Assembly: GCA_021604105.1 (NCBI GenBank)
Contig: BQIW01000029.1
Location: 1 to 45,640, forward strand
DNA from: Nitrospirales bacterium
Lineage (GTDB): Bacteria > Nitrospirota > Nitrospiria > Nitrospirales > UBA8639
Length of the DNA stretch: 45,640 nucleotides
Direction: 5' to 3'
Position numbers and translations under genes: made by a program. Positions 25,414-43,501 of the stretch are shown piece by piece (position 1 is the stretch's first letter; every line of letters starts with the position of its first letter). Below the pieces are notes generated by a model. That model saw nothing but the letters and a program-made list of their open reading frames with translations, was not told the origin of the DNA and did not search any database.

Positions 25414-28400
25414 TTAGGGTTTTTGGGATGGTGTAGGTAGGGAATAAGTTCGCGTCATGCCACTTGAGAATGTTTCAATCTGGTCATTGATGCATAAGAA
25501 AATCGGAGATTTTATTCCGTCACGCCCTCGCACGGTGAGATCATTGTGCGTCAACCGCAATTCGAACGTCTGCCCTCGATAACGAACTCGCATATCCATG
25601 CGTGCAATTTCTTGAGGCAATTCCGGATTAAGCCGCAGAACATCGTTTTTGACCTCAATGCCCGTTGAGACGCGCTGCACCAAATCGACCGTGCCCGCCA
25701 TGGCGCCCAAATGAATGCCTTCGGCCGTCGTACCTTGCTGGATATCGTTCACATCGCTCTGCAGCGCCTCGGTAAACAGGTTCATGGCACGTGGACGGTC
25801 GGACCGTGCCAGGACCCAGGCGCACACCACGCGGCACAGCGTCGAACCATGGGACAATCGGTCGGTATAATAGGCGATGTTGCGGGGAATCGTGTCGTAT
25901 TCGAACGGATAGCCCAGTCGTGCAAACAATTCCCCCAGTTCCTCGGAGGAAAACAGGTAAAACAACATGAGCACGTCGGCTTGCTTAGAAAGCTTATAAT
26001 GGTTGGGACTGTCATGCTCCGCTTCCAGAATGAGGTCCAGCCGTTGGATGTTGCCATACCGGGTCCGGTAGTCCTCCCAGTTAAACTCGTGCAATGTTTC
26101 ATAGCCCTCGAATTGACTGATCATTCCATCCCGATGGAACGGCAGGTACATGCGGCGACTGATATCTTCCCAACGGTCAATGTCATGCCGTGATATTCCC
26201 AGCTGCATCGTCAGTTCGGTACGACGCACATCAGAAAGAATGTCGAGGATCTCCAGAGCCCGGCACAGGACCCATACGGCCATCAAGTTGGTATAGGCAT
26301 TGTTATTAAGACCGGGTGTAGTGGCATCGGGATACCCGTCATGGAACTCGTCCGGACCCATGACGCCGTGAATTTCATACCGCCCGCGGGCGTCATTGAA
26401 AGTCGCGATGCTCGACCAGAATCGAGCAATGTCCAGAATCATCTCGGCCCCATAGGACTGGAGAAATTCAAGGTCGTGCGTGACCTGGAAATATTGCCAG
26501 ACGTTGTACGCCACGGCACTGCCCACGTGGCGCTGCAGGTAGGTATGATCCCGCATCCATCGTTGGGATCGTGAATTCAGATTAAATGTCTGAGTTTCTT
26601 CCTGACCGTCACTTCCGCTTTGCCAGGGAAACATGGCGCCCTTATAACCGGCCTGGCGGGCGGCTGCACGTGCCTCACCAAGGCGGCGATACCGGTACAT
26701 CAACAGCGAGCGGGTAATTTCGGGCATGCGGTAATTAAAGAAAGGAAAGATAAACAATTCATCCCAAAAAATATGGCCCTGGTAAGCCTCTCCGGTCCAA
26801 CCCCGGGGCGGGACCCCGATATCACGTCCGATGGAATTCGGCGAAATCGTCTGCAGCAGGTGAAACATGTTCAGTCGAAGCAGCATGGGAACATTTAATT
26901 GAAACTCGGGAGCCGCAGGCTGGAGATGAATATCGAAATGGCGCCACAAATACTTCCACGCGAGCTGATGATCCGCCGTGACGGCCGCAAAAGTTCCGGT
27001 GCGTGCGATGGCCTTGCGCGCCTCCAGCCCGCATTCCGAAGTGGCATGGTCGCGGGAAGTATGGAGCGTGATCAGCTTTTCCAGCACCAATCGCTCCCCT
27101 TCATGAAGGTTCACCTGCAGTTCCTGCCCGATATAACCCGGTTCCTCGACTATTCGACGCTGCCCCTTCACCTGTGTTCCGTTGACGAATATGTGTGTTC
27201 GTGCTGCCTGGGCGACGTGTATCTGTGACTGGCAGGTTCGTACCAGCAGAAAGACGGTCTCCTCGTTCACAACCTCACTTGCCAGCGGCTCCATGTGAGA
27301 ATTGTTGAATGGTCGATAGAGCGTGGCACCGGCGTTGACCACACGGCCATCTATCGCCGAACGGACGGTGACGCGTCCGGACCAGTTCTCGGCAGTCAGC
27401 GCGAGTTGTAGCGCTCCCACATGCATCTGTCGCATGGAAACCAGCCGTTCTTCATCCAAGCGACTGCGTCGCCCTTGTGCGTCTTCGAACCGGATGGACC
27501 GCAAGAGCCTGGCGTGCTTGAGATCCAGTTCCTGGCGGTAGGACAGGAGTTTTACCGTCTTCACATCGAACCACGGCTGATTGGCGATACGAAATTCGAG
27601 GGCGAGCCAATTGGGAAAATTCACCAAATCCTCATTCTCGACAACTTCGCCATTAATGTCGGTGCGCAAACGGTTATAGCCGCCGGAAAGGTACGTTCCC
27701 GGATAATGTGTGCCATCCGCCACGGCCCATGCTGCAGCCCCGCGCGTGGTGAAATACCCATTGCCCAAGGCACATAAGGCTTCGCGCGTGCCTTCCTCGG
27801 CAGGATCGAAGCCCTCAAACACCAGGGACCATGAAGAAGGGGGCTCGACGGATATGTGCACTTGCCCCAGATTGGTGACCACGACATCGGCCCCGGCCTT
27901 ATGGAGTGCCTGAGGGTGCCCGCTTCGGTTAACGCCGATGACGCAACCGAACCCGCCTGCGCGTCCCGCCTCAACACCGGCGATTGCGTCCTCCACCACC
28001 ACGGTTCGAGAAGGCTCCACCCCGAGGCGACGAGTTCCTTCCAGAAAGGCATCCGGTGACGGCTTGCCCTTAAGTTTCAGGTGGATGAGGTCTTTCCCAT
28101 CCACTCGCGTGTCGAACAGCGTGGCGACGCCTGCTGCCTCGAGCACGGCCGCGCAGTTGTTGCTGGAGGATACCACGCCAGTCTTGAGTTCTGTGACCCG
28201 AAGCATTCGCACCAAGGCAATTGCCGCCTCATATAGTTCAATTCCATCCTGTTTCAGGTGATGCAGAAAATACTGGTCTTTGAGATTGCCAAGTGCGCAG
28301 ATGGTGTTGGCTTCGAGTCCGTCTGCAGGGGTGCCATAGGGAAGCGTAATCCCACGCGACTCAAGGAAAGCTGCCACCCCGTCATAGCGGGGTTTGCCAT

Positions 28401-28608
28401 CGACGTAGCGTCGATAGTCCGCATCGAGATCGAAGGGAACGAAAAGTTTTCCCGTCTCTGCAGATCGTAATTTCAGAAAACGGTCGAACAGCCTTTTCCA
28501 GGCCCCCGCATGGACGCGAGCCGTTTTAGTCAAGACACCGTCCAGATCGAACAATACGGCGTCGTAATCCCTTGGAGAGAGGGTCAGGATAGGGCAACTA
28601 CAAGTCAT
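25414..28608 (-). CDS. bifunctional HAD phosphoglucomutase-GH65 glycoside phosphorylase
   Basis: This 1,064-residue cytoplasmic fusion has two parts. Residues about 14-245 are a beta-phosphoglucomutase-type HAD domain: nucleophile D21 with D23 in DLDGVLT, SSSN near 148, K182 in GKPSPDAF, and VEDAIAG near 205. Residues about 255-1050 are a glycoside hydrolase family 65 phosphorylase with GRDIGVPPRGWTGEAY and WDELF near 595-618, the general acid E754 in GPDEFH, KQADVL near 874 and the phosphate-site segment GTTAEGIHLGAMAG near 959. GH65 enzymes phosphorolyse trehalose, maltose or kojibiose to beta-glucose 1-phosphate, which the HAD domain would turn into glucose 6-phosphate. Trehalose is a plausible substrate, but this is inference. 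It lies near the glucan phosphorylase. Confidence 0.92.
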   Translation of the reverse strand: MTCSCPILTLSPRDYDAVLFDLDGVLTKTARVHAGAWKRLFDRFLKLRSAETGKLFVPFDLDADYRRYVDGKPRYDGVAAFLESRGITLPYGTPADGLEANTICALGNLKDQYFLHHLKQDGIELYEAAIALVRMLRVTELKTGVVSSSNNCAAVLEAAGVATLFDTRVDGKDLIHLKLKGKPSPDAFLEGTRRLGVEPSRTVVVEDAIAGVEAGRAGGFGCVIGVNRSGHPQALHKAGADVVVTNLGQVHISVEPPSSWSLVFEGFDPAEEGTREALCALGNGYFTTRGAAAWAVADGTHYPGTYLSGGYNRLRTDINGEVVENEDLVNFPNWLALEFRIANQPWFDVKTVKLLSYRQELDLKHARLLRSIRFEDAQGRRSRLDEERLVSMRQMHVGALQLALTAENWSGRVTVRSAIDGRVVNAGATLYRPFNNSHMEPLASEVVNEETVFLLVRTCQSQIHVAQAARTHIFVNGTQVKGQRRIVEEPGYIGQELQVNLHEGERLVLEKLITLHTSRDHATSECGLEARKAIARTGTFAAVTADHQLAWKYLWRHFDIHLQPAAPEFQLNVPMLLRLNMFHLLQTISPNSIGRDIGVPPRGWTGEAYQGHIFWDELFIFPFFNYRMPEITRSLLMYRYRRLGEARAAARQAGYKGAMFPWQSGSDGQEETQTFNLNSRSQRWMRDHTYLQRHVGSAVAYNVWQYFQVTHDLEFLQSYGAEMILDIARFWSSIATFNDARGRYEIHGVMGPDEFHDGYPDATTPGLNNNAYTNLMAVWVLCRALEILDILSDVRRTELTMQLGISRHDIDRWEDISRRMYLPFHRDGMISQFEGYETLHEFNWEDYRTRYGNIQRLDLILEAEHDSPNHYKLSKQADVLMLFYLFSSEELGELFARLGYPFEYDTIPRNIAYYTDRLSHGSTLCRVVCAWVLARSDRPRAMNLFTEALQSDVNDIQQGTTAEGIHLGAMAGTVDLVQRVSTGIEVKNDVLRLNPELPQEIARMDMRVRYRGQTFELRLTHNDLTVRGRDGIKSPIFLCINDQIETFSSGMTRTYSLPTPSQKP

Positions 28609-28824: not shown

Positions 28825-29316
28825 TTAAGAACTCTTCCATTGCATTTCTCTGGCCCCCAACAATGAAAGTCCTTCCTTCATTTCATTGAGACATTGCACT
28901 TCACACTCATCGATAGGTTGATCGAAGTCGGAACGATGCAAAATCTTAATGGTGAGGGTGACGTCCGGGCGATTGCTCCGAACCCGGTCAAACCGGATCG
29001 CGCTATCAAATATTTCTATTTCATAGCGAGAAGCACGGTTTTTCTTCGGAATAATCCGCGTCGCGATTTTTCGAAGGCCTTTGTAAATTGCCTTACATTT
29101 TTCACAGCCTGGAAGCGGGTGATCTTCGATCGCATGCGTTCCATAAAGCCTTAGGTCAAACCCAACTTGGAGCGGCCTGTCCTCAACGACCGGTATTTGT
29201 TCAGGTAACACTTCCCAACAAACCTGGTGCTTATTGACAAAGGTTTTTAACATTTCTACCGTACCCAAATTTTCTGACTGGCCATCAGAAACAACTGGTT
29301 TTCTGGACTTTCCCAT
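28825..29316 (-). CDS. conserved-looking hypothetical protein
   Basis: This is a 163-residue soluble protein with no signal peptide. A central segment carries HPLPGCEKCKAIYKGLRKIA, whose CxxC could bind metal, and a short region of alternating charged and hydrophobic residues follows (ASRYEIEIFDSAIRF, DVTLTIKILHRSDF). I do not recognise the family. The start is well supported: GGAGG lies about 8 bases before the ATG. It sits between two sugar phosphorylase genes in the same direction, so co-transcription and a role in storage-sugar metabolism or its control are possible (inference). Confidence 0.7.
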   Translation of the reverse strand: MGKSRKPVVSDGQSENLGTVEMLKTFVNKHQVCWEVLPEQIPVVEDRPLQVGFDLRLYGTHAIEDHPLPGCEKCKAIYKGLRKIATRIIPKKNRASRYEIEIFDSAIRFDRVRSNRPDVTLTIKILHRSDFDQPIDECEVQCLNEMKEGLSLLGAREMQWKSS

Positions 29317-29465: not shown

Positions 29466-31319
29466 TTAGACATAAGCATTCGCCGCATATTGCTGAACCA
29501 TCCGATGTGTGTTGAAAAACGACGCATTAAAGGCGATGGATTGCCGCATCATATCAATCCATCGCTCTCGGTCCTGGTAAAACATGGGGACAATGACGTT
29601 TCTCAATTTTTGGTAGAGATCCATGGCATCTTCATGGGCCGTCTCTTCGGGCTTGGTTTGGTTAAGAGCGGCAGGCCCAATCGACCAGCCTGTGACGCCT
29701 TCAATATGACCTTCGATCCACCAGCCGTCCAGCACGCTAAAATTTGGTATGCCGTTATGCGTGGCTTTCATGCCTGAAGTTCCCGAAGCTTCTAAGGGTC
29801 GATGTGGGGTGTTCAGCCAGAGATCAACACCGGAAATAATGAGTTTGGCTAACGCGATGTCATAATTCTCCAAATACGCAATTGCCACCTCGGCTTGAAG
29901 CTGTTGGGCCATCCTAAAAATTCGTTGGATAACCTCTTTTCCTCCACCATCTTTAGGGTGCGCCTTCCCTGCGAAGATAATCTGAATCGGGCCGGCGTTT
30001 CGTGCAATGTCTTGTAATTGGTTAGGATCAGAAAAGATGAGATCAGCCCGTTTATACAAGGCCGCTCGGCGAGCAAATCCGATGGTCAGTATTTCAGGTT
30101 TGAAAGAGAGGTCGGTTTGATTGTTGATTTCTTTGATGAGCTGAGCCTTGGCTTCCACGTGGGCTTTCCAAATTTCTTGTTTCGGAATGCTGATGGCATG
30201 TCGAAGTGAGAACGGGTCCTTTGTCCACCCCGGAATGTGCCGATCATACAAGGTTTTGAAGCTAGGGCATGTCCATGTGGCTGAATGCACGCCATTGGTA
30301 ATAGAATCAATTGCGTAACCAGGGAACATCTCCTGGGAGACCTCCCCATGCCTTTTGGCTACCCCATTGACATAATCGCTCATGTTCAAGGCAAGAAGCG
30401 TCATATTCAACTGATCTTGTCCTCCGAGCATTTGTAGGAGTTCCAGAGGCAGGGAATCCCCCAACACCTGCTTCACGAGATCGTACGAAAACCGGTCGTG
30501 CCCGGCAGGAACAGGGGTGTGGGTGGTAAAGATGCATTGGTTGCGAATACCCGAAAAATCCCAGTCCAACGTTCCTCCATGTTTATGGTCTGCTAAAAGT
30601 TTCAACACCAGGAAGGCGGCGTGCCCTTCATTCATATGGAATCGCTCGATCTCGGTGTATCCTAACGCATGAAGCATGCGCATGCCTCCGATGCCTAACA
30701 CGATTTCCTGGGCTATCCGATACCCGTTGTCTCCACCGTACAACCAGCCGGTCAACTCCTTATCGGATGGGGAATTTTCTTCAACATTGGTATCAAGCAG
30801 AATCAGGGGCACCGTAAAGCCGGAGGAGCCGACGATGTCATATTGCCAGGCCCGGACGGTGACCGATCGACCTTCGAGAGGAATCTGAATCTGCCCGGGG
30901 AGAAGCTGCGCGAAGCGAGAGGGATCCCAGCTCGTGGGCAATTCTTGTTGATTGCCGGATTCATCCAGTTTTTGATCAAAATATCCATGGGCATACAGCA
31001 AGGTGACCCCGACGGTCGGAATCTTCAGATCGGAGCAGGATTTTAATGTATCTCCGGCCAGGATTCCCAAGCCGCCACTATATATGGGCATGCTGGATTC
31101 CACTCCAACCTCCATGGAAAAATACGCAATCCGTCTGGAGATTTTTCCCAGGACAGAAGGAAGGCTAGCACCCGTACCCACAAATTTCTCAGTATCTTCT
31201 AGGAAAGTCCGCTTGCAGAGATCAGAGCAAAAATGAAAAGACTCTTTTTGATAAACCACTGTAAGACTGGTATCCGGGTCGACCATCATGCCGCATACAG
31301 GGTCTTTAACCATGTTCAT
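29466..31319 (-). CDS. alpha-glucan phosphorylase (GT35) with N-terminal YHS domain
   Basis: This 617-residue protein should cleave alpha-1,4-glucans such as glycogen to glucose 1-phosphate in the cytoplasm. Residues 4-48 form a YHS domain ([19 protein letters not shown]9, C31, C35) of the type found in copper ATPases. From about 60 on it is a short-form glycosyltransferase-35 phosphorylase: RIAYFSMEVG, SGGLGILAGD, HMNEGHAAF, THTPVPAGHD, TNGVHSATW, and the PLP-binding K518 in GTSGMKATHNG. The core is about 550 residues, as in the short archaeal/bacterial phosphorylases, not the 800-residue glycogen-phosphorylase form. A YHS domain at this position is not a usual arrangement; it may be a redox or metal-responsive module (inference). 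Confidence 0.9.
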   Translation of the reverse strand: MNMVKDPVCGMMVDPDTSLTVVYQKESFHFCSDLCKRTFLEDTEKFVGTGASLPSVLGKISRRIAYFSMEVGVESSMPIYSGGLGILAGDTLKSCSDLKIPTVGVTLLYAHGYFDQKLDESGNQQELPTSWDPSRFAQLLPGQIQIPLEGRSVTVRAWQYDIVGSSGFTVPLILLDTNVEENSPSDKELTGWLYGGDNGYRIAQEIVLGIGGMRMLHALGYTEIERFHMNEGHAAFLVLKLLADHKHGGTLDWDFSGIRNQCIFTTHTPVPAGHDRFSYDLVKQVLGDSLPLELLQMLGGQDQLNMTLLALNMSDYVNGVAKRHGEVSQEMFPGYAIDSITNGVHSATWTCPSFKTLYDRHIPGWTKDPFSLRHAISIPKQEIWKAHVEAKAQLIKEINNQTDLSFKPEILTIGFARRAALYKRADLIFSDPNQLQDIARNAGPIQIIFAGKAHPKDGGGKEVIQRIFRMAQQLQAEVAIAYLENYDIALAKLIISGVDLWLNTPHRPLEASGTSGMKATHNGIPNFSVLDGWWIEGHIEGVTGWSIGPAALNQTKPEETAHEDAMDLYQKLRNVIVPMFYQDRERWIDMMRQSIAFNASFFNTHRMVQQYAANAYV

Positions 31320-31633: not shown

Positions 31634-31843
31634 CTAGAGTTTAACCTTTAGGATTTCTTGTTCTGCGTTTAGCCAGTGGTCAAGATCATGTCCGTGACAA
31701 CAACCCCCTTGCTCATAAAGCTCATAGGCCCGTTGGGCGATGCAGGCTTGAAGATCATCCACTCCCGGTGCTTCCTGACCGCCCTGTGGTGCCTCTGGGA
31801 CTCCCTCATTGGGACGTTCCTTCTTGAACAGTCGATTTTTCAT
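31634..31843 (-). CDS. small DUF2934-domain protein
   Basis: This is a 69-residue cytoplasmic protein. The DUF2934 signature is clear: IAQRAYELYEQGG, two cysteines (GCCHG) and HDLDHWLNAEQEIL. The domain is short, function unknown, and frequent in Nitrospirota and Deltaproteobacteria. The ATG at 31843 has AGGAG 7 bases upstream; the frame extends 28 codons further up but without support. It is the last gene of the minus-strand copper operon, separated from the sigma-factor gene by about 170 bases, so it may have its own transcript. The CC pair in the loop is unusual and could bind copper (speculation). Confidence 0.72.
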   Translation of the reverse strand: MKNRLFKKERPNEGVPEAPQGGQEAPGVDDLQACIAQRAYELYEQGGCCHGHDLDHWLNAEQEILKVKL

Positions 31844-32012
31844 GATGCTTCTCCTTGCTAAAGTTCCCTGCCTCCCTAAGCCGACACATACACATGGCCT
31901 TGCGTGTGTGGGCATAATCTCTATCAATGGTGCCCTCTTACTCCACTCAACAAGCTTTTTCCCCCGTTTGAGTAAAACTCACCTAACATAAGACGGGAAT
32001 TGCCTCGCCGGG

Positions 32013-32690
32013 TTACAGTTGACTTGATGAATACAGGTTCTTCCCCCCTTTTTTTTCGTGCTCACATTCGCAGTTCATAAAACCTGAATCATGACAGGAC
32101 TTACAGCAAGACATGAGTAGTACTCGCTTAAGGGCCCGTCGGGCCCTATGGAGACGAACTTTCACCAAGATGGGGGTGATTCCTAGTTCACCGGCAACGG
32201 TTGCGTGTGATTTTCCATCAAGATCGATCCGCTGCAAGATATCGGAATACTCCGGTTTGAGCGTCGGGATAAGCGTATAGAAGCAGGTACAGACTGACGC
32301 AGGATCCACATCGAAATTTTGTGAATGAAGAGGTTGCAGGCGAGCATATTCGGCCTCCCCTTGACGTCTCTTTTCTTGGCGACGATGAAAGTCCGCCAGC
32401 GTGCTGTTCAGCACGCGATACAACCAAGCCACCACACTTTCCGGTTTTTTGAGATCGCCTCCTTTAGAGAGGGCTCTCATGCAGAATTGCTGTAGTATCT
32501 CCTCGGCAATTTCCATATTTCCCACGCGTCGGTTGAGAAAGTGAAGGAAGGCTTGACGATTCTGAATAAGAGCCATCTTTAAAATTGGGTCCGATGTAGA
32601 GCGCCCCGAACGGGATGCGGCTTTTGATGTCGCTTTTTTGCTGGTCATTTTTAGAGCCATCTTTTTGGGGTTGGCGCTAAACTTGCTCAT
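32013..32690 (-). CDS. ECF sigma factor with CTC linker motif and cysteine-rich tail (CorE-like)
   Basis: This protein of about 225 residues has a basic low-complexity start, region 2 (about 40-105; ILQQFCMRALS, WLYRVLNSTLADFHRR) and region 4 (about 145-192; a helix-turn-helix with TVAGELGITPILVKVRLHRARRALKR). Between them lies CTC (134-136). After region 4 comes CCKSCHDSGFMNCECEH, with five cysteines at 195-209. This layout matches the ECF44 group typified by CorE of Myxococcus xanthus, where the cysteine-rich tail senses copper directly without an anti-sigma factor. I infer that it controls the copper operon that contains it. I prefer ATG 32690; an in-frame TTG at 32720 has a poorly spaced ribosome-binding site. 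Confidence 0.87.
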   Translation of the reverse strand: MSKFSANPKKMALKMTSKKATSKAASRSGRSTSDPILKMALIQNRQAFLHFLNRRVGNMEIAEEILQQFCMRALSKGGDLKKPESVVAWLYRVLNSTLADFHRRQEKRRQGEAEYARLQPLHSQNFDVDPASVCTCFYTLIPTLKPEYSDILQRIDLDGKSHATVAGELGITPILVKVRLHRARRALKRVLLMSCCKSCHDSGFMNCECEHEKKGGKNLYSSSQL

Positions 32691-32726
32691 CTTTAGGGGC
32701 CCTGCTTTCTTTTGGTCCAATTCCTA

Positions 32727-33158
32727 TTAATGCTGATGTCCCATGTGGCCATCGGACGAGGATGCGGGAGTACTTGATTCAACCGTGCCATATTTTCGGA
32801 ACGGGGGAGCATTCCAAATGACGGGGTGGCCGGGAGCCAAATCGGCCGCTTCGATAAAATGAGGCCGCGCGCCTGAAACAGGCCCTTTCTTGTAAAGGGC
32901 CATTCCCAGATTGTAATGGGCCTCTGCCAATTTGGGCTGGGCTTGAATGGCTTCTTCGTACTTCCCAATCGCCGCCGTCCACCGGTGTTCCGTAAACAGG
33001 CGATTGCCCTCGATAATCAGTTGTGCGACCAGGGGGGTTGCGTTCTCAGGTGGCGGGAGGGGGTCGTCTTGAGGGGATTGAGTTACCCCTCCACAGCTCA
33101 CTAGCAACACGACTACGATCATACTTACAACATATTGAAGGATGTTGATCTGTTTCAT
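32727..33158 (-). CDS. TPR lipoprotein with His-rich tail, copy 1
   Basis: This 143-residue protein has a lipoprotein signal (VVVLLVSC), a proline-rich spacer, a TPR region (about 50-110; EHRWTAAIGKYEEAIQAQP, KLAEAHYNLGMALYKKG), then a conserved end, HPVIWNAPPFRKYGTVESS, and a final GHMGHQH. It should be anchored in the periplasm. The His/Met end could bind copper (inference). Its start overlaps the stop of the cusA-like gene by 4 bases (ATGA), so translation is coupled to the pump. A paralogue lies at 42578-43015. I know no named family for it. Confidence 0.82.
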   Translation of the reverse strand: MKQINILQYVVSMIVVVLLVSCGGVTQSPQDDPLPPPENATPLVAQLIIEGNRLFTEHRWTAAIGKYEEAIQAQPKLAEAHYNLGMALYKKGPVSGARPHFIEAADLAPGHPVIWNAPPFRKYGTVESSTPASSSDGHMGHQH

Positions 33159-36100
33159 GGTGTTGAATTCCTATCTTCGGCCGAAGCCTTGTGTTGGTGT
33201 TTGAGTTCCCAGCCTCTCCAAATAATATAGATACAGGGAATGACGAGAAGCGTCAGAATGATGGTGGTGAGCATGCCTCCCACCATGGGAGCGGCGATTC
33301 GTTTGGCCACATCCGCGCCACTGGCTTGGGTCCACATGATGGGGAGGAGGCCCAGGATTGTTGATGCGACCGTCATTGTGATCGGTCGAACCCGTTTCAC
33401 ACTTCCGTCAAATACCGATTCGATCAGGTTCTGGATGGATTGCAGGCGCCCTTCTGTCTTCCACTTGGTATACGATTGGTCGAGGTAGGTGATCATGATG
33501 ACCCCCGTCTCGGCTGCTACCCCGATCAAGGCGATGATCCCAACCCAGACGGCGACACTGAGGTTATATTCCAACAAATACAGGGACCAAATGGCCCCCA
33601 CTGCTGCGAAGGGAACCGAAAGGAGCACGATGAGTGTTCGAGCCACAGATTTGAAATTGAGGTAGAGCAACAGAAACACAAGGAGAAGAGTCAGCGGGAC
33701 GACATAGAGGAGCCGGGCTTTGGCGCGTTGCATGTATTCGTATTGTCCACTCCAGCCCAGATAATATCCTTTGGGCAATTCCACGGTATCAGCAACCACC
33801 TTCTTGGCCTCTTCCACATAACTGCCGAGATCACGTCCGGCGACATCCACGTAAACATACCCGACGAGCATCGAGCCCTCGCTTTTTACGACGGCCGGCC
33901 CGGTGATGAGCCGGACATCGGCCAGTTGCGTGATGGGAATTTGTTGCCCCTCCTCTGTGGAGACGAGAACCCGTTTGAGATCTTCCAGGCTGTTGCGAAA
34001 TCCCCGGGAATACCGGAGGTTCACCGGAAACCGTTCCCGACCTTCAATCGTTGTGGAGATATTTGTTCCGCCGATGGCGGATTCGATGACTTGTCCGACA
34101 TCGCCGATGGTCAACCCATATCTGGCGATTTGGTCACGTTTAATTTTAAAATAGACATAATACCCGCCCGCCGTCCGCTCAGCGTAAATATTTCGTGTGC
34201 CAGGTACTTCCCGAAGCGCGTTTTCAATGTTCCCTCCGATCTGTTGGATCGTTTCCAGGTTGTTCCCAAAAATCTTAATGCCCAGTGGTGTCCGGATTCC
34301 CGTGGTGAGCATATCGATGCGGCCTTTGATGGGCATGGTCCAAGAATTCGCGAGTCCCGGAACTTGAAGGGCTCGATCGAGTTCGTCCTCCAGCCGGTCC
34401 GCAGTCATTCCCGGCCGCCATTGGTCATCGGGCTTCAAGTTAATCACGGTCTCGATCATGGTGAGCGGGGCGGGATCGGTTGCCGTCCTGGCTCGGCCCG
34501 CCTTTCCGAAGACCTGCTCGACTTCGGGGAATTGTTTGATGATGCGGTCGGTCACTTGGACGAGTTGTTGCATTTGTGTAATGGAGGCCCCGGGAAGCGT
34601 GACAGGCATGTACATCAACGTCCCTTCATACAACGGAGGCATAAATTCCGATCCAAGTTTGGCGAATACCGGCCATGTGGCAAGAAGGCACACCATCGCA
34701 AGGAGGATGGTGGTTTTCCGGAAACGAAAGACCAACTGCGCGAGAGGCTTATAGAGCGCCATCAACACGCGAGTCATCGGATTGCGGTCTTCTTTGAACA
34801 TGCGTCCTCGAATCAGGAGGACCATGAGCAGCGGCACCAACGTGATCGCCAAAAACGCCGCGGAGCCCATGGCGAAAGTTTTTGTAAACGCCAGGGGACG
34901 AAACAGCCGGCCTTCCTGGGCTTCCAGCGTAAAGACGGGAAGAAAGGAGACGGTGATAATCAGCAGGGAGAAAAATAACGGCTTGCCGACTTCCTTGGCC
35001 GCCTCAATGATGAGATCGACTCGATTGGCCTCCGGCCCTCCCTGCTCCAATTTCTTATGTGCGTTCTCGACCATGACGATGGCGCCATCCAACATGGCGC
35101 CGATCGCAATCGCGATGCCGGCGAGAGACATAATGTTCGAACTCACCCCCAAGTAATACATGGCGGTGATGGACATGAGAATGGCCAATGGAAGTGTCAA
35201 GATGGCCACGAGGGCACTTCGAATATGAAAGAGGAATAGGATAATGATGACGCTGACGATGAGGCTCTCCTCAATGAGGGTTTCTTTGAGGGTAGCGATG
35301 GAACGATGAATCAATTGGGAACGATCATAGGTTGGAATAATCTTGACGCCTTCCGGCAGGGCGGGGGAAATTTCTTCAATCTTGGCTTTGACCCGTTCGA
35401 TCACGTCCAGGGTGCTGACTCCGTAGCGGATGACGACGATGCCGCCCGCGACTTCCCCGTTGCCGTTCAATTCGACGAAGCCTCGCCGGATATCGGGTCC
35501 CAGCTCTATTTGAGCGATATCTTTGAGCAGAATGGGTGTTCCCTTGGCATCGGTGCCGACGGCGACCTGCTCAAGGTCTTGGACAGACTCCACATAGCCT
35601 CGGCCCCAGACCATGTATTCCCGTCCGGTAAACTCGACCACCCGCCCTCCGACATCGTTATTGCTCGTCCGAATGGCCCGAACGACCTTATCAACCGGCA
35701 AATTGTAGGCCAGCATCGCGTTGGGATCGATGTTGACCTGATATTGCTGCACATAGCCACCGATGCTGGCCACGTCTGACACGCCGGGAACGGCCTTGAG
35801 CCAATAGCGGATATACCAGTCCTGTAAGGTTCGGAGATCCGCAAGGGTCTGTTTCCCGGTTGTATCGACCACGGCATATTCGAATCCCCATCCGACGCCG
35901 GTGGCATCAGGGCCCAGCGTGGGGGTGACGCCGTCGGGTAAGGATTTCAGGGCTTCGTTCATGTATTCCAGAATGCGGCTGCGAGCCCAGTACATGTCGG
36001 TCCCGTCTTCAAAAATGACATAGATGAATGAAAGGCCGAAGTAGGAATAGCCGCGAACGACTTTCACTTGTGGAGCCGCCAGCATCGTGGTCACGATCGG

Positions 36101-36301
36101 ATACGTAATTTGATCTTCCACTAATTGGGGAGCTCGTCCTACCCATTCGGTGAAAATAATTACCTGGACGTCGGAGAGGTCGGGAATAGCATCCAAAGGC
36201 GTCGAGTTCACAGCCCAGACTCCCCATGCGGCCAGAAATCCAACCATCAGCAACACCAAAAAAGGATTCCTGGCACTCCGTTCGATGATTTTTTCAATCA
36301 C
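33155..36301 (-). CDS. cusA: CusA-type RND heavy-metal efflux pump
   Basis: This 1,048-residue inner-membrane antiporter is of the HME-RND class. It has 12 membrane segments, the first at about 14-30, and two large periplasmic loops. The periplasmic three-methionine site that binds Cu(I)/Ag(I) in E. coli CusA (M573, M623, M672) is conserved as M565, M615 and M664 with the same 50 and 49 residue spacing. The TM4 motif IAIGAMLDGAIVMVENAHK carries the proton-relay acidic residues. The start is a GTG at 36301 with a GAGGA 10-11 bases upstream. It follows the cusB-like gene by 83 bases and overlaps the TPR lipoprotein gene by 4 bases. Substrate Cu(I)/Ag(I) is well supported; Zn/Co/Cd pumps lack this triad. 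Confidence 0.96.
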   Translation of the reverse strand: MIEKIIERSARNPFLVLLMVGFLAAWGVWAVNSTPLDAIPDLSDVQVIIFTEWVGRAPQLVEDQITYPIVTTMLAAPQVKVVRGYSYFGLSFIYVIFEDGTDMYWARSRILEYMNEALKSLPDGVTPTLGPDATGVGWGFEYAVVDTTGKQTLADLRTLQDWYIRYWLKAVPGVSDVASIGGYVQQYQVNIDPNAMLAYNLPVDKVVRAIRTSNNDVGGRVVEFTGREYMVWGRGYVESVQDLEQVAVGTDAKGTPILLKDIAQIELGPDIRRGFVELNGNGEVAGGIVVIRYGVSTLDVIERVKAKIEEISPALPEGVKIIPTYDRSQLIHRSIATLKETLIEESLIVSVIIILFLFHIRSALVAILTLPLAILMSITAMYYLGVSSNIMSLAGIAIAIGAMLDGAIVMVENAHKKLEQGGPEANRVDLIIEAAKEVGKPLFFSLLIITVSFLPVFTLEAQEGRLFRPLAFTKTFAMGSAAFLAITLVPLLMVLLIRGRMFKEDRNPMTRVLMALYKPLAQLVFRFRKTTILLAMVCLLATWPVFAKLGSEFMPPLYEGTLMYMPVTLPGASITQMQQLVQVTDRIIKQFPEVEQVFGKAGRARTATDPAPLTMIETVINLKPDDQWRPGMTADRLEDELDRALQVPGLANSWTMPIKGRIDMLTTGIRTPLGIKIFGNNLETIQQIGGNIENALREVPGTRNIYAERTAGGYYVYFKIKRDQIARYGLTIGDVGQVIESAIGGTNISTTIEGRERFPVNLRYSRGFRNSLEDLKRVLVSTEEGQQIPITQLADVRLITGPAVVKSEGSMLVGYVYVDVAGRDLGSYVEEAKKVVADTVELPKGYYLGWSGQYEYMQRAKARLLYVVPLTLLLVFLLLYLNFKSVARTLIVLLSVPFAAVGAIWSLYLLEYNLSVAVWVGIIALIGVAAETGVIMITYLDQSYTKWKTEGRLQSIQNLIESVFDGSVKRVRPITMTVASTILGLLPIMWTQASGADVAKRIAAPMVGGMLTTIILTLLVIPCIYIIWRGWELKHQHKASAEDRNSTP

Positions 36302-36384: not shown

Positions 36385-37740
36385 TTACTTTTCCCCTCGC
36401 GACATTTGAGATGAAGAGGTGGGTTCCTTCGAGGGTTTCTTTTCATGGCCGCCATGCATCATCCCCGTTGCAGCTTTCAGGCTACTTTCAGAGTCAATCA
36501 GGAAGTTCCCATAGGTCACGACTTGTTCGTCCGGCTCCAGACCTTCAATGATTTCGTACCAGTCTCTGGTGCGTATACCGGTTTTCACCGGTCGGGGATC
36601 AAACATGCCCTCTCCTGTATCGACGAAGACGAGCTGCTCGGTTCCTGAATCCAGGACAGCCGTGTTAGGTACCACCAGGCGTTCACCCAGTGGAATCTTC
36701 ATTTCCACGTTGGCAAACATTTGAGGCTTCAGTTTCCATTTCGGATTCGGAAGCTCATATCGTACTTTCACGGTCCTGGTCTTGGGCTCGAGGACAGGAT
36801 AGATGTATGTCACTTTTCCCTCAAAGACTTCACCGGAAAAATAGGGCAACGTGATAGTCGCCTCCTGGCCCAGTTCCACGTCTTGAATTTCATATTCATA
36901 GAGGTCCGCCAGTACCCATACTCTGGAAAGATCAGCCAGGGTATAGACCTCCATCTCCGGAGTCACATACATCCCATCGCGAACATGCATCTTCAGCACA
37001 TAGCCGGACATGGGGGCGTGCAGCGGTAGGGTTCGGAGGACCATTCCTGACTTTTCCAGATCTCTAATATGATTCGGGGTGATATCCCAGAGCGCGAAGC
37101 GTTCACGGGTCGATTGCAGCACGCGTTTCGAGGCGTTGGCGACTTGAGGGAATTCACTTGCTCCTAAGGCACGAACCGCTTTCAACGCGAGCAAGTATTC
37201 TTCCTGCGTCGCCACTAATTCCGGACTATAAATCTCGAACAACTTTTGATCTTTTCGAACTTTTTCTCCCGTGAATTTGACATATAATTTTTCGATCCAC
37301 CCTTTGAGTTTGGTGTGCACGTGTTCCAATAGCCGCTCGTCCACCTCTACCAGTCCGACGGTACGGATGGTCCGCGTGAGTGTGCGGACTCGGACTTGTT
37401 CGGTTTCCACTCCGATCATTTGCTGCTTTCGAGGACTGACCATGATGCCGGGAGATGACATGGCATTTCGTGGTCCGTTTGTTGACGGGGCCGGAGTATC
37501 GCGTTGTGTAGTCGGAGCAGACGAGCCAACGATTTCTGTCAGCCCGCTCATGGGGCCTTCGCCTCCTTTCCCAAGCCAATACAGCAGGCCGAGCAACGCT
37601 ACTGCTGCTACGATGAGGCCCCCGATCACCCACATCCGGCGAGAGGGCGTTCCGGTAGGCTTGGCAGGCGGCGGATGAGGATTCTGGTTATGCTGTTGGG
37701 CTGTATCGGAACGATCAGGCATCGTTGATGGCTCTTTCAC
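36385..37740 (-). CDS. cusB: CusB-type periplasmic adaptor (membrane fusion protein)
   Basis: This 451-residue adaptor links the RND pump to the outer-membrane channel. A basic, proline-rich cytoplasmic start precedes one membrane anchor (MWVIGGLIVAAVALLGLLYW, about 36-55). A barrel-sandwich/lipoyl domain follows, with GWIEKLYVKFTGEKVRKDQKLFEIYSPEL starting near 147 in two parts, then a helical hairpin and a beta-barrel (YEYEIQDVELGQEATITLPY). The C-terminal tail is His- and Met-rich (MMHGGHEKK). The start is GTG at 37740, overlapping the cusC-like stop as GTGA; ATG 37722 is an alternative. Pairing with a CusA-type pump sets its role. Confidence 0.93.
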   Translation of the reverse strand: MKEPSTMPDRSDTAQQHNQNPHPPPAKPTGTPSRRMWVIGGLIVAAVALLGLLYWLGKGGEGPMSGLTEIVGSSAPTTQRDTPAPSTNGPRNAMSSPGIMVSPRKQQMIGVETEQVRVRTLTRTIRTVGLVEVDERLLEHVHTKLKGWIEKLYVKFTGEKVRKDQKLFEIYSPELVATQEEYLLALKAVRALGASEFPQVANASKRVLQSTRERFALWDITPNHIRDLEKSGMVLRTLPLHAPMSGYVLKMHVRDGMYVTPEMEVYTLADLSRVWVLADLYEYEIQDVELGQEATITLPYFSGEVFEGKVTYIYPVLEPKTRTVKVRYELPNPKWKLKPQMFANVEMKIPLGERLVVPNTAVLDSGTEQLVFVDTGEGMFDPRPVKTGIRTRDWYEIIEGLEPDEQVVTYGNFLIDSESSLKAATGMMHGGHEKKPSKEPTSSSQMSRGEK

Positions 37741-39005
37741 GGCTGGACCTTGTGCAAGGGAATCCCCACGGCTTCCTCCAGTCGTGCAATAGCGATTTCA
37801 TGGGCGGCCCGCTCCTGATGGAGATCAATTTCATCCCGCTGCAGTTTGAGAAGGTTGTCGAGCATGGTGAGGAAGTCCACATTCCCGACGGAATAACCCG
37901 CGATAGAAGACTCCAAAGCCAACCCCGCCTGCGAAAGAATCGCATTGCCTAACAACTTGATGAGTCGAGTGGCACGCTGCACTCGGGCAAAGTTGTCCTT
38001 CACCCGAAAGAGAAGATCCTGACTGACCGTCTGATAATTTTTCCGAGCTCCTTCGAGCTTGGCTAAGGCTTCCTCCACCCCATACCGTTGTTTGGTCGCA
38101 TAATAGAGGGGGACTTTAATCCCCAATGTCCCAAAGGCATCCGTTAGGTCACTGGAGCGAAAGGATTGCATGGCCCCGAGGCCCACAAAGAAATCGGGAT
38201 AATACTCACGGTGGGCCAAATCGAGAGCTGATTTCCCACTTTCCACACTTTTGACCTGGGCTTTAAGGAGTGGAGAGTGTTGGAGGGCTTGCTCGTTGAG
38301 TTGATCCAGCGAATATGGAAGCGGCGTGATGTTCACCTCCTCGGGAGTGCCCAAGGGGGCGGCAGGGGGACGGTTCAGCAACCGATTAATGTCGGCATGT
38401 AACGTCTCCTTTTCTTGTTCGAGGGTCGTGAGCCGTTCTAATTCCCGGGAAAGTTCGACTTGAGCCCGGAAGAGGTCCTGCTGAATACCTTTTCCAACTT
38501 TGTAGCGCGCTTCCGCCGTTTTTTCGAACTCATCCAGAATTTTGATGTTTTTCTGGACGATCTCAATAGACTGATGAATAAAGTGAAGGGTGTAGTAAGC
38601 CTCTTGCAGTTGGGCCAGGACTCGCAGTCCCGTCGCTTTATATTCTTCACGCACCTGATCGGCCACATTCCCCGCCACCTGTCCGCGAAGACCTAACTTG
38701 CCAAAAAAGGGAAATTCCTGCTGAAACGCGATTCTTCCCTCCCGCATAATGTCAGGGCCACGGTAGGCAAACCCGATAATGGGATCGGGCAGGGTCTGTA
38801 CCTGGGGAATCAGGGCCTTCGCCGCTTCCCATCGCTGTCGAGCCGCTTGAATCTCAGGATTCTGCTGCTCCGCTTCTTCAATGAGCGTCTGAAGTTTGAG
38901 CTGGGTCTCGGCAGCCAAGAGTGGCGGTCTAAGAAGAACGATGAACAACAGTAGACTGGTGATGGCAACCGACATGAATACATGTCGGCTCTGGAAAAGT
39001 TGCAT
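37737..39005 (-). CDS. cusC: CusC/CzcC-type outer-membrane factor
   Basis: This 422-residue TolC-family channel has a signal peptide (about 1-32, ending PLLAAE) and two OEP repeats of coiled helices (LIEEAEQQNPEIQAARQRWE; LNEQALQHSPLLKAQVKSVE). It has no lipobox cysteine, unlike the TolC-family lipoprotein at 23.5 kb. It would form the outer-membrane exit of the CusCBA-like pump and is the first large gene of the operon. The downstream cusB-like gene overlaps its stop by 4 bases. A small exported-protein gene ends 90 bases upstream on the same strand. Confidence 0.93.
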   Translation of the reverse strand: MQLFQSRHVFMSVAITSLLLFIVLLRPPLLAAETQLKLQTLIEEAEQQNPEIQAARQRWEAAKALIPQVQTLPDPIIGFAYRGPDIMREGRIAFQQEFPFFGKLGLRGQVAGNVADQVREEYKATGLRVLAQLQEAYYTLHFIHQSIEIVQKNIKILDEFEKTAEARYKVGKGIQQDLFRAQVELSRELERLTTLEQEKETLHADINRLLNRPPAAPLGTPEEVNITPLPYSLDQLNEQALQHSPLLKAQVKSVESGKSALDLAHREYYPDFFVGLGAMQSFRSSDLTDAFGTLGIKVPLYYATKQRYGVEEALAKLEGARKNYQTVSQDLLFRVKDNFARVQRATRLIKLLGNAILSQAGLALESSIAGYSVGNVDFLTMLDNLLKLQRDEIDLHQERAAHEIAIARLEEAVGIPLHKVQP

Positions 39006-39746: not shown

Positions 39747-40655
39747 TTAAAACCAGAGCCTTACGCCCACCACGAATCGAATTTGACTTGGATTTCCCCC
39801 TTCCTCCCGCACGAGTGAGGCGGTATCTCCAAAACTTTTGTCCAAGGAGATTCCCACGTAGGGGGCAAATTCCCGTCGGATTTCATAACGCAGCCGAAAC
39901 CCCAATTCAAGGTTATTCAGTCCTGAACCCGTTGTGAACTTTCGTACACGTTGAATCGCGGCATTCGTCTCAAAGCGAGGCTGAAGGATCAGCCGTTGCG
40001 TGAGGGAGAGGTCTTTGGTCGCGGTCAATCGTGCAGACAGGTCCCCATGTTGACTCATGAAGATAGCGGGCTGAAGTTCATAGTTATACGGGACGAGACC
40101 TTGTAGACCGATCACCGCCAGCCCTCGTGTGACGTTCCGTCCCCGATAGGATTGTGTTTCGATGCGCCCCCCTGCTTGGAAATCGTAATACTGCTGAATG
40201 AAGCGTCCGAAGAGGAGTTGTGAATCTATGTCGTAGTCGGCCTTAAATGCCGTGTCCCGCTGGCCCTCGCTTTTGAACCAGATTCGATTGTAATCACCGC
40301 CGTACCAGCCTTCGATGTCCCACCGGTAGTCGTCATGACTTCCGTCCCCACCAATGTTCGGTCGGTATTCAAGGACGTCGGCAAGGAAAAACCCGTGGTT
40401 CTCTTCATCCATGACAGGACTGGGCCAGTCCGCTTTTTGGGATACAGGTGATCCCGTGTCCGACATTTCTCTGAATACCCCGGATCGGGTGTCAGTCTGG
40501 CCTTCTGGCTGTATCGTTTGGGGGTGGGATTTGTGTTTATGAGTGGACATTAATTCGTCGGGGATGGATTGGGAAAAGATAACTGACGAATTGAAATCCC
40601 AAATAAGAAGACTGATGATCATGAGTGAGAGGATGCATCGAAAAAATTTCCTCAT
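39747..40655 (-). CDS. copB: CopB-type outer-membrane copper resistance protein
   Basis: This protein of about 303 residues has a signal peptide (MRKFFRCILSLMIISLLIW) and, after a His/Pro linker, a C-terminal beta-barrel. The CopB family (PF05275) is recognisable from DVLEYRPN, WDIEGWYGGDYNRIWFKSEG, QYYDFQAGG, NNLELGFRLRYEIRREFAPYVG in part and the terminal VVGVRLWF. CopB sits in the outer membrane and sequesters or exports copper with the CopA oxidase. ATG 40655 overlaps the oxidase stop by 4 bases (ATGA), which argues against the longer frame starting at 40745. The linker is shorter and less Met-rich than in Pseudomonas CopB. Confidence 0.9.
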   Translation of the reverse strand: MRKFFRCILSLMIISLLIWDFNSSVIFSQSIPDELMSTHKHKSHPQTIQPEGQTDTRSGVFREMSDTGSPVSQKADWPSPVMDEENHGFFLADVLEYRPNIGGDGSHDDYRWDIEGWYGGDYNRIWFKSEGQRDTAFKADYDIDSQLLFGRFIQQYYDFQAGGRIETQSYRGRNVTRGLAVIGLQGLVPYNYELQPAIFMSQHGDLSARLTATKDLSLTQRLILQPRFETNAAIQRVRKFTTGSGLNNLELGFRLRYEIRREFAPYVGISLDKSFGDTASLVREEGGNPSQIRFVVGVRLWF

Positions 40656-42526
40656 GAACGCCCTGTAGGTTCCTCGGCGGAAACCTCGACGACGCGGAAC
40701 ATGCCGGCTTCCATATGGAAGAGGAGATGGCAGTGAAAGGCCCAACGTCCGGGAGCGTCCGCCGTGATGGCGACGGAGACCCGCTCGGCCGGTTTGACGA
40801 TGACAGTGTGTTTGCGGGGCAGGAATGCCCCTGCTCCGTTCTCAAGGTGCATCCACATCCCGTGCAAGTGAAGGGGATGCTCCATCATCGTATCGTTGAC
40901 GAAGGTGAAGCGCAGCCGTTCGCCGTGACGAAAGAAAATGGGCTCCTTGGCTTCTGAATATTTTTTGCCGTCGAATGACCACATGTAACGTTCCATGTGA
41001 CCCGTGAGGTGGACCTCAATTTCGCGCCCAGGCTCCCGCTGGTCCGGGTAGGGCGCAAGACTTTTTAAGTCGGTGTAAACCAGCACCCGTGTGCCGGTAT
41101 CTGTCAACCCGATGCCAGGCTCATCCAGCTGTTGACGCGAAAATTCGGCGACGGATTGATTGCCGGTACCATGGTGGCCTGGAGCGTGCCGGACCGGTGT
41201 GCTGCCGGGAATCATCGAATGACGCGATTCACCAGGTGGAAGGTCTGACATGTCGTGCTTGTCATGCATGTGTTCCTTGGCGTGTCTTTGTGACCCGTTC
41301 AATTCCTGGTTGTTCAACGGTGTCTCTTCATGATGATTGAGATTCTTCATGTCGGCCATGTCCATGCCGTCCATGTGCATGCCCATGGCGGCCATGGTCC
41401 GGAGCGGCCGAGGACGACGGTCGGGGAGTGGGGCGGTCATTCCTGTGCGCGGGGCCAGTGTGCCGCGCGCGTACCCGCTCCGATCCATCGTTTCGGCAAA
41501 GATGGTATAGGCCCGCTCCTCGGTGGGTTGGACGATCACATCGTAGGTTTCTGCCGGTCCGATACGAAATTCATCCACCGCCACAGGCTGCACATTTTGT
41601 CCGTCGGCCTGAACAACGGTCATGGTAAGTCCAGGCAGACGTACGTCATAAAAGGTCATAGCGGTGGCGGCGATGAAGCGCAATCGCACCCGTTCGCCGG
41701 GCCTAAACAATCCGGTCCAATTTTGGTCAGGTGCCAATCCATTCATTAAATAGGTATAGGTATACCCGGTGACGTCCGCGAAGTCCGTGGGGTCCATCCG
41801 CATCCGGTCCCACATCAGATAGTTCTGCAATGCCGGCCCCAATCCCATTCGTGACACATCGGAAAAGAACTCGGGAGCGGCGCGCTTCTGGAAATTATAG
41901 TAGTCACTTTGCTTTTTGAGATTGGCAAAAACCGATTCCGGCGACTCGAAGGTCCAATCCGAGAGCACCACAACATAATCCCGATCGTAGTGAACCGGCT
42001 CCGGCTCAATCGGATCGATGATGAGCGGTCCGTATACACCCGATTGTTCCTGGAAGCCGGAATGACTGTGGTACCAATAGGTTCCGCTTTGCCGGATGGG
42101 GTAGCGGTAGCTAAAGGTTGAGGCCGGCTTGATGCCGCCGAAACTGACGCCCGGCACACCGTCCATGTCCGGCGGAAGAAGCAATCCATGCCAGTGAATG
42201 GAGGTATCTTCCATTAACCGGTTCGTGACATTGAGTGTCACATTGTCACCTTCCTTCAAACGAATTAATGGACCGGGTAACGTGCCGTTAATGGTCTTGG
42301 CTATTCCGGTCAACTCTCCGATTTGAACCGGAGATTTGGAAATGCGTAAATCAATGGTCTTTCCCTGTAGTTCTGAAGGAGATCCCGCTTTTGCCATGGT
42401 TGTGCCGGCCAGAACATAGGAAGGAAGGAGGCGACCAACAGCGGTCATGATTCCCAGCGCACCGACCCCTTTCAGTAACGAACGCCGTGTCATTCGGGTG
42501 TCTTGACTATCCCTGTTAATGCTCAT
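40652..42526 (-). CDS. CopA-type multicopper oxidase (PcoA/CopA family)
   Basis: This 624-residue periplasmic oxidase carries a Tat leader (MTRRSLLKGVGALG). Copper motifs are complete: HWHGLLLP (111-), HSHSGFQE (153-), HPLHLHGMW (550-) and HCHLLFHMEAGM (598-609, with axial M609). Between domains 2 and 3 lies a Met/His-rich stretch at about 377-452 (MAAMGMHMDGMDMADM, HMHDKHDM), the hallmark of CopA/PcoA, which binds extra Cu(I). It oxidises Cu(I) to the less toxic Cu(II). The symbol copA in the Pseudomonas sense would clash with the P-type ATPase, so it is left blank. It is translationally coupled to copB, and the second TPR lipoprotein gene lies 51 bases upstream. Confidence 0.95.
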   Translation of the reverse strand: MSINRDSQDTRMTRRSLLKGVGALGIMTAVGRLLPSYVLAGTTMAKAGSPSELQGKTIDLRISKSPVQIGELTGIAKTINGTLPGPLIRLKEGDNVTLNVTNRLMEDTSIHWHGLLLPPDMDGVPGVSFGGIKPASTFSYRYPIRQSGTYWYHSHSGFQEQSGVYGPLIIDPIEPEPVHYDRDYVVVLSDWTFESPESVFANLKKQSDYYNFQKRAAPEFFSDVSRMGLGPALQNYLMWDRMRMDPTDFADVTGYTYTYLMNGLAPDQNWTGLFRPGERVRLRFIAATAMTFYDVRLPGLTMTVVQADGQNVQPVAVDEFRIGPAETYDVIVQPTEERAYTIFAETMDRSGYARGTLAPRTGMTAPLPDRRPRPLRTMAAMGMHMDGMDMADMKNLNHHEETPLNNQELNGSQRHAKEHMHDKHDMSDLPPGESRHSMIPGSTPVRHAPGHHGTGNQSVAEFSRQQLDEPGIGLTDTGTRVLVYTDLKSLAPYPDQREPGREIEVHLTGHMERYMWSFDGKKYSEAKEPIFFRHGERLRFTFVNDTMMEHPLHLHGMWMHLENGAGAFLPRKHTVIVKPAERVSVAITADAPGRWAFHCHLLFHMEAGMFRVVEVSAEEPTGRS

Positions 42527-43015: not shown

Positions 43016-43501
43016 GAACTAAGTTTGTTGAAACTTCGGTTGAATGCCATTTTAGGGCGCATATGAGTGGATTAAAAAATGGCTGAATTTTGGTCAAACA
43101 GGTTGATCCTTTATCTGCTTTGATGTCAGATGAAATACAGACTGGTGATGACCACCGGTGCGAGCAGAGTGGCTATTACGGTTTTGCATATCAGGGCAGG
43201 CGCGATTCGTTTCATCACCTCCAGTATCTTAACTAATCTGTATAATAGAAAGCTCTGGAAACGATTCTATTCCGGGTAATCTCATCCCTCGCTCCTTTGA
43301 ACGGGCTGTCTGTTTTCTTCCTATTGATTAAAGGTATCATGGGTTTAATCTAATCCATCAATAACTATAAGACTCTCCCCATTTTACTAACCAGGCCTCA
43401 ATGAACCTTTGCCGGTCGGAAAAATGGTGTTTTGTCATCTCTAGCTTTGTGCTAAGCTTTAAGCATCCAATTTTGATAACCGATCAGATAAAATAAGAAA
43501 T
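43016..43501. other. divergent promoter region of the copper island
   Basis: These 486 AT-rich bases lie between divergent copper units and have no supported gene. An inverted repeat stands at 43326-43350. Promoters for both directions should be here. Confidence 0.5.
43326..43350. promoter_or_regulatory. operator-like inverted repeat in the divergent intergenic region
   Basis: GATTAAA (43326-43332) and TTTAATC (43344-43350) pair around an 11-base spacer, and the match extends outward imperfectly with ATT/AAT. It is about 150 bases before the His-rich gene. The size fits a dimeric regulator site, but no regulator is identified. Confidence 0.3.

Follow-up and report, generated by a model that had tools for sequence, protein, structure and literature searches.

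A YHS domain fused to an alpha-glucan phosphorylase in copper-resistance loci: a candidate link between copper stress and glycogen breakdown

The window (the whole stretch of DNA analyzed, 45,640 nucleotides from a Nitrospirales bacterium) carries a copper island on its minus strand. Running from position 43097 down to 22013, its genes encode a PcoA-type oxidase, CopB, CusC, CusB, CusA, a TPR protein, an ECF sigma factor and a DUF2934 protein, followed by a fusion of a YHS domain to a GT35 alpha-glucan phosphorylase (YHS-GT35), a 163-amino-acid (aa) protein, a beta-phosphoglucomutase-like domain fused to GH65 (bPGM-GH65), an outer-membrane channel and a second multicopper oxidase. CopA comes next past that oxidase, and cusCBA and the CorE-like sigma factor gene lie just upstream of the fusion. 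The features are listed below (L numbers denote other loci):

40652..42526, minus strand: PcoA/CopA-type multicopper oxidase (TIGR01480, 841.5 bits)
39747..40745, minus strand: CopB copper-resistance protein (PF05275)
37737..39005, minus strand: CusC-like outer-membrane channel (PF02321)
36385..37740, minus strand: CusB-like adaptor (PF16576)
33155..36301, minus strand: CusA-like RND efflux pump, recurring upstream of YHS-GT35 in other loci
32013..32720, minus strand: CorE-like ECF sigma factor gene, assigned from its cysteine signature, 694 bp from the fusion gene
31634..31927, minus strand: DUF2934 protein, adjoining YHS-GT35 also in L235, L238 and L245
29466..31319, minus strand: YHS-GT35 fusion protein, a single uninterrupted open reading frame of 617 aa
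31176..31310, minus strand: YHS domain of the fusion, aa 4-48, with D6, C9, C31 and C35 (Pfam PF04945, predicted fold and conserved residues)
31140..31175, minus strand: linker, about aa 49-60, predicted to be flexible (pLDDT under 50, weakest constraint)
29472..31130, minus strand: GT35 catalytic core, aa 64-616, with PLP lysine K518 (TIGR02094 match; invariant K518, R417/R418 and K423)
28825..29316, minus strand: 163-aa protein with no family match, a recurrent downstream neighbor (L036, L155, L159, L237, L238)
25414..28608, minus strand: beta-phosphoglucomutase-like HAD domain fused to GH65 (disaccharide phosphorylase/hydrolase type), near YHS-GT35 also in L036 and L155
22013..23461, minus strand: second multicopper oxidase (profile matches)
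15705..18203, minus strand: CopA copper P1B-ATPase with its own YHS domain, carrying CPC (TM6) and MxxSS (TM8) motifs

CPC and MxxSS are the copper(I) motifs of the P1B-1 group. A scan for sigma-70 promoters and terminators around the fusion gene returned sites no more frequent than in shuffled sequence. Elsewhere in the window (1917-5864, minus strand) lies an Amt-type sensor kinase of 1315 aa, combining an ammonium transporter with GAF, histidine kinase, receiver and Hpt domains.

Residues 4-48 of the fusion matched the YHS family in a profile search (PF04945, 38.9 bits against a gathering cutoff of 30.3), and the core matched the alpha-glucan phosphorylase family TIGR02094 (599.2 bits against a cutoff of 191.7) over profile positions 1-598 of 600. 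The YHS part carries the full ligand set of one Asp and three Cys (D6, C9, C31 and C35). In an alignment of 32 sequences the PLP lysine K518, within EASGTSGMK, was invariant, as were the phosphate-pocket residues R417/R418 and K423, together with H267 and G451/K452; the fusion has the whole catalytic core, PLP lysine and active-site residues in common with TIGR02094 phosphorylases. An earlier note on this DNA had described an intact YHS domain (C9, C31, C35) ahead of a complete GT35 core with its PLP lysine, and the reading frame, both profile matches and K518 confirm that description. The DNA at the junction of the two parts is a straight read-through. The core is of the short form, its nearest solved structures being 9l6i and 20yr (Segatella copri); in contrast to long GT35 forms, it lacks the N-terminal region and the C-terminal extension and has YHS in place of the N-terminal regulatory region. 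In animal phosphorylase, N-terminal input is usual (Ser14, AMP), and by analogy a metal input at the N terminus would be reasonable here.

An AlphaFold2 model of the full 617-aa fusion had a mean pLDDT of 83.6; aa 49-60 fell below 50, which suggests that YHS is a module of its own on a loose tether. Modeled by itself, YHS reached a core pLDDT of 89-95 and matched ribosomal protein eL24 (Foldseek probability up to 0.99, though with an E value of about 0.1) and the equivalent part of diiron hydroxylases (toluene/o-xylene monooxygenase, for example). VIA Z scores were 6.2 to 3rng_A and 4-5 to eL24, modest values that are expected for 50 residues and that point to a TRASH/eL24-like predicted fold. 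In Haloarcula eL24, Cd2+ is bound through four cysteines, the first of which is replaced by Asp in YHS (PMC4626032). The YHS of toluene-4-hydroxylase is metal-free in its crystal (PMC4626032), so the YHS fold alone is no proof of metal binding.

Dozens of other genomes gave alignments, far above chance, that start at residue 1-4 of the fusion and run to residue 617. The same architecture occurs in genomes and plasmids of at least five phyla (Nitrospirota, Planctomycetota, Cyanobacteriota, Acidobacteriota and Thermodesulfobacteriota), including Nitrospirota, Nostoc, Gemmata and other Planctomycetota, an Acidobacteriaceae MAG and a Syntrophaceae MAG. Within the window genome's own genus, family and order, nine more full-length copies aligned from residue 1 at 67-80% identity. 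The fusion is also present in five cyanobacterial plasmid records, and three of the four plasmids examined were typed as conjugative. A drawn sample of 395 Nitrospirota genomes yielded 17 complete copies and one more truncated at a contig end; the samples from the phyla of Gemmata (343 genomes), Nostoc (292) and the Syntrophaceae genome (297) yielded 8, 1 and 2 complete copies, respectively. With the architecture search proposed in the earlier note now run, neither doubt raised there was borne out: recurrence of the same fusion in dozens of genomes rules out an assembly error at the junction, and the frequencies above (17/395, 8/343, 1/292 and 2/297) do not describe a common, context-free fusion. 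Within Nitrospirota, complete matches of at least 63% identity all have YHS, and the listed matches of 58% or less all begin past it. We also observed a partial second YHS-GT35 upstream of an intact one (L038:3968-4838, plus strand), probably a decayed duplicate, and a stand-alone 60-aa YHS gene (L305:974-1153, minus strand) whose start lies a few bases past the end of YHS-GT35. No description of a YHS plus phosphorylase architecture was found in the searchable literature (papers on YHS domains, and on glycogen phosphorylase and copper in Nitrospira; subscription papers lay outside this scope).

Asp and the three Cys were present in 41 of 41 YHS modules taken with a motif filter, which is partly circular for the Cys counts; copies that the filter missed were read separately and also kept all four residues. 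In 60 related pairs, pN/pS was lowest in the core (0.19), intermediate in YHS (0.28) and highest in the linker (0.53), values that are descriptive because pairs share lineages. Judged from these sequences, the fused YHS is kept under purifying selection. That the fusion is neutral or an assembly artefact is extremely improbable: we found no support for it, and the fusion has been kept over five phyla and gained twice (see below). The same residues bear on whether the YHS cysteines form a thiol redox switch with no metal site, oxidation under copper or oxidative stress altering activity. C31 and C35 are invariant and four residues apart, and a YHS-fused pyridine-nucleotide disulphide reductase is encoded in the L087 locus. 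However, the invariant D6 suits a set of metal ligands and not a disulphide, and the ligand set is the same as in a copper-responsive cyclase (PMC4626032), making such a switch very unlikely.

A maximum-likelihood tree was built from 94 GT35 cores after removal of the YHS sequence. Mapping the presence of YHS onto it needs three changes, and the starred branches force three. L078 and L087, titled Deltaproteobacteria and placed by taxonomy in Myxococcota, stand outside the main YHS-bearing group; their YHS modules start DPVCHM or DLVCHM, and the nearest relatives of their GT35 (62-70% identity) have no YHS. As these two stand apart on the tree and their closest relatives are YHS-less, it is well supported on phylogenetic grounds that YHS-GT35 was gained at least twice independently, once in the main group and once in the lineage of L078 and L087. 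The main group itself may represent one gain with a loss, or else two gains. The earlier note had further held that the YHS of the fusion closely resembles that of the window's copper ATPase. The two do have a 12-residue stretch in common, but the overall likeness was overstated: identity is 37% over the 51-column domain. In the module comparison that it proposed, the fusion YHS was up to 90% identical to its counterparts in other phosphorylases and clustered with them, apart from that of the window's CopA. A recent copying of the local CopA module was therefore rejected. Compared with YHS-bearing CopA ATPases, the fusion has the domain family, ligand set and locus in common, whereas the YHS modules of phosphorylases form a separate group.

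Copper markers (CopA, CusA, CusB, PcoA or CopB within 6 kb) were present in 20 of 39 YHS-bearing loci and in 4 of 60 YHS-less loci (Fisher P about 6 × 10−7, kinship ignored), a count that favors YHS-bearing loci because the marker proteins came from them; a tree-corrected association cannot reach significance because the tree holds only three independent pairs. About half of the YHS-bearing loci had no counted marker within 6 kb, L230, L231, L040 and L046 among them. The order CusB-CusA, a few genes, then YHS-GT35 recurs in other Nitrospirota, and the YHS-less GT35 copies that share a Nitrospirota genome with the fusion had no copper marker in 11 loci. Cyanobacterial plasmid copies sit in copper/heavy-metal clusters, with heavy-metal ATPases, DUF2933, DUF5676, an ICMT-like protein, DUF305, a four-helix copper protein and RppA/RppB as neighbors. 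In L078, CopA, a cupredoxin and YHS-GT35 follow in order (25-base overlap, 14-base gap), and L087 has the same order; both CopA proteins have CPC and MxxSS. None of the six YHS-less sisters of this lineage (0/6) had CopA near GT35, so the gain of YHS coincides with a copper-ATPase operon a second time. This independent gain tests the copper link better than the main group does. In G829 and G891 (phylum of Gemmata), the YHS-less GT35 copy of the same genome has Cus-like genes no more than about 5-8 kb away. In Ancylobacter plasmid pC (L119), a YHS-less short GT35 adjoins a copper ATPase, CueR, DUF411 and DUF2934, so linkage of short GT35 to copper genes does not require YHS.

This last locus, a plasmid copper cluster, bears on whether YHS might be a structural site of treble-clef type (e.g. 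zinc) that stabilizes the enzyme or its dimer, the copper surroundings reflecting co-traveling mobile stress islands. The fold match to eL24 is consistent with such a site, as are the fusions carried by plasmids and by diverse islands that also contain general stress genes; however, the closest relatives are complete enzymes without YHS, and both independent fusions are tied to copper loci. We regard a purely structural role as fairly unlikely.

Other gene contents were seen around these loci. In L150 (2517-7687, minus strand) and several close relatives, YHS-GT35 is followed by genes for V/A-type ATPase subunits and an NhaA-like antiporter. One gene away from YHS-GT35 in L087 (8882-9961, plus strand), YHS is fused to a pyridine-nucleotide disulphide oxidoreductase, and a YHS-histidine kinase fusion directly follows a YHS-less short GT35 gene in L114 (6036-6906, plus strand). 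In view of the reductase and kinase fusions, loci of this kind seem to use YHS as a portable N-terminal module.

The ECF sigma factor beside the fusion carries CTC at 144, in the sigma2-sigma4 linker, and a C-terminal C-x2-C-x7-C-x-C made up of CKSC at 206 and CEC at 217. The cysteine-rich domains of CorE have four invariant Cys at 181, 184, 192 and 194, i.e. C-x2-C-x7-C-x-C (PMC3107203), and CXC has been added to the CorE-like signature (PMC8999054). Cys189, which drives activation in CorE, is present in only 11 of 21 (PMC3107203). The window's sigma factor thus has the CXC and the four invariant cysteines of CorE-type copper-dependent sigma factors but lacks a Cys189 equivalent, having phenylalanine at that place, where the sigma factors of L160, L236 and L240 have Cys. 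Given these CorE-type cysteines, the sigma factor of this locus is probably metal-responsive. Similar CorE-like sigma factors lie near YHS-GT35 in other Nitrospirota.

The closest functional precedent is the YHS adenylyl cyclase of Mycobacterium phlei, in which 1-10 μM Cu2+ raised activity sixfold with Mn2+ and switched it on with Mg2+, an effect ascribed to YHS because the isolated catalytic domain was not stimulated (PMC4626032). Both proteins combine an enzyme with one YHS, a short linker and one Asp plus three Cys, whereas YHS is C-terminal in the cyclase, which makes cAMP (PMC4626032), and N-terminal in the phosphorylase, which would mobilize glycogen directly.

Given its two or more independent origins and its place in copper-resistance clusters, the fusion may put the breakdown of sugar stores directly under a copper switch. 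The reading we prefer, to which we give about an even chance, is of a working alpha-glucan phosphorylase whose N-terminal YHS is a copper-binding regulatory module tying glycogen breakdown to copper stress. The earlier suggestion that glycogen breakdown is tied to metal or redox state gains partial support on the metal side from the genomic context, the repeated fusion, the Asp plus three Cys and the analogy with the cyclase; copper is most likely the metal concerned. Rising cytoplasmic copper would be bound by D6, C9, C31 and C35, and the copper-loaded YHS would alter its packing on the GT35 core via the predicted flexible linker. Such allosteric repacking would alter phosphorolysis, most likely upward as in the copper-activated cyclase, and the glucose-1-phosphate released would supply ATP and reductant for copper efflux and repair. 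The fusion gene would belong to the same copper-stress program as cusCBA and copA, probably via the adjacent CorE-like sigma factor. Activation is favored over inhibition, itself possible, because neighboring genes offer uses for the product: bPGM-GH65 in the window, phosphoketolase (L036, L039, L117), glucose-6-phosphate dehydrogenase (L230) and an isoamylase-type enzyme (L046). In the window's genome no GlgA passed the cutoff and GlgB was clear, with other amylase-family matches beside it, so the glucan may come by another route.

YHS might also bind metal but serve as a docking or localization module: with the phosphorylase kept close to CopA or to other YHS proteins, fuel would be released locally and catalysis would be unchanged. 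YHS occurs on CopA, alone, and on other enzymes inside the same loci, and the predicted flexible linker would suit docking. Against this, copper genes are not always nearby, and we know of no YHS-YHS docking. The one measured YHS enzyme that we found shows a catalytic effect (PMC4626032). A docking role is, on balance, unlikely.

Accounts of copper tolerance usually center on efflux, oxidation and storage. With a copper-type module built into a phosphorylase, energy reserves would be linked to metal stress at the enzyme level, beyond transcription, and metal-based control of phosphorylase would join that by phosphorylation, nucleotides and HPr. Copper switching of the kind we prefer for this fusion might extend further: with somewhat less than an even chance, these proteins are a phosphorylase family directly switched by intracellular copper and spread across phyla by copper-resistance islands, one case of YHS making unrelated enzymes (phosphorylase, disulphide reductase, histidine kinase, cyclase) copper-responsive. 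To our knowledge, apparently only one YHS enzyme has been measured so far, and the fusion makes it testable whether YHS is a portable copper switch. A phosphorylase family switched in this way would constitute a metal-gated entry point into central carbon metabolism.
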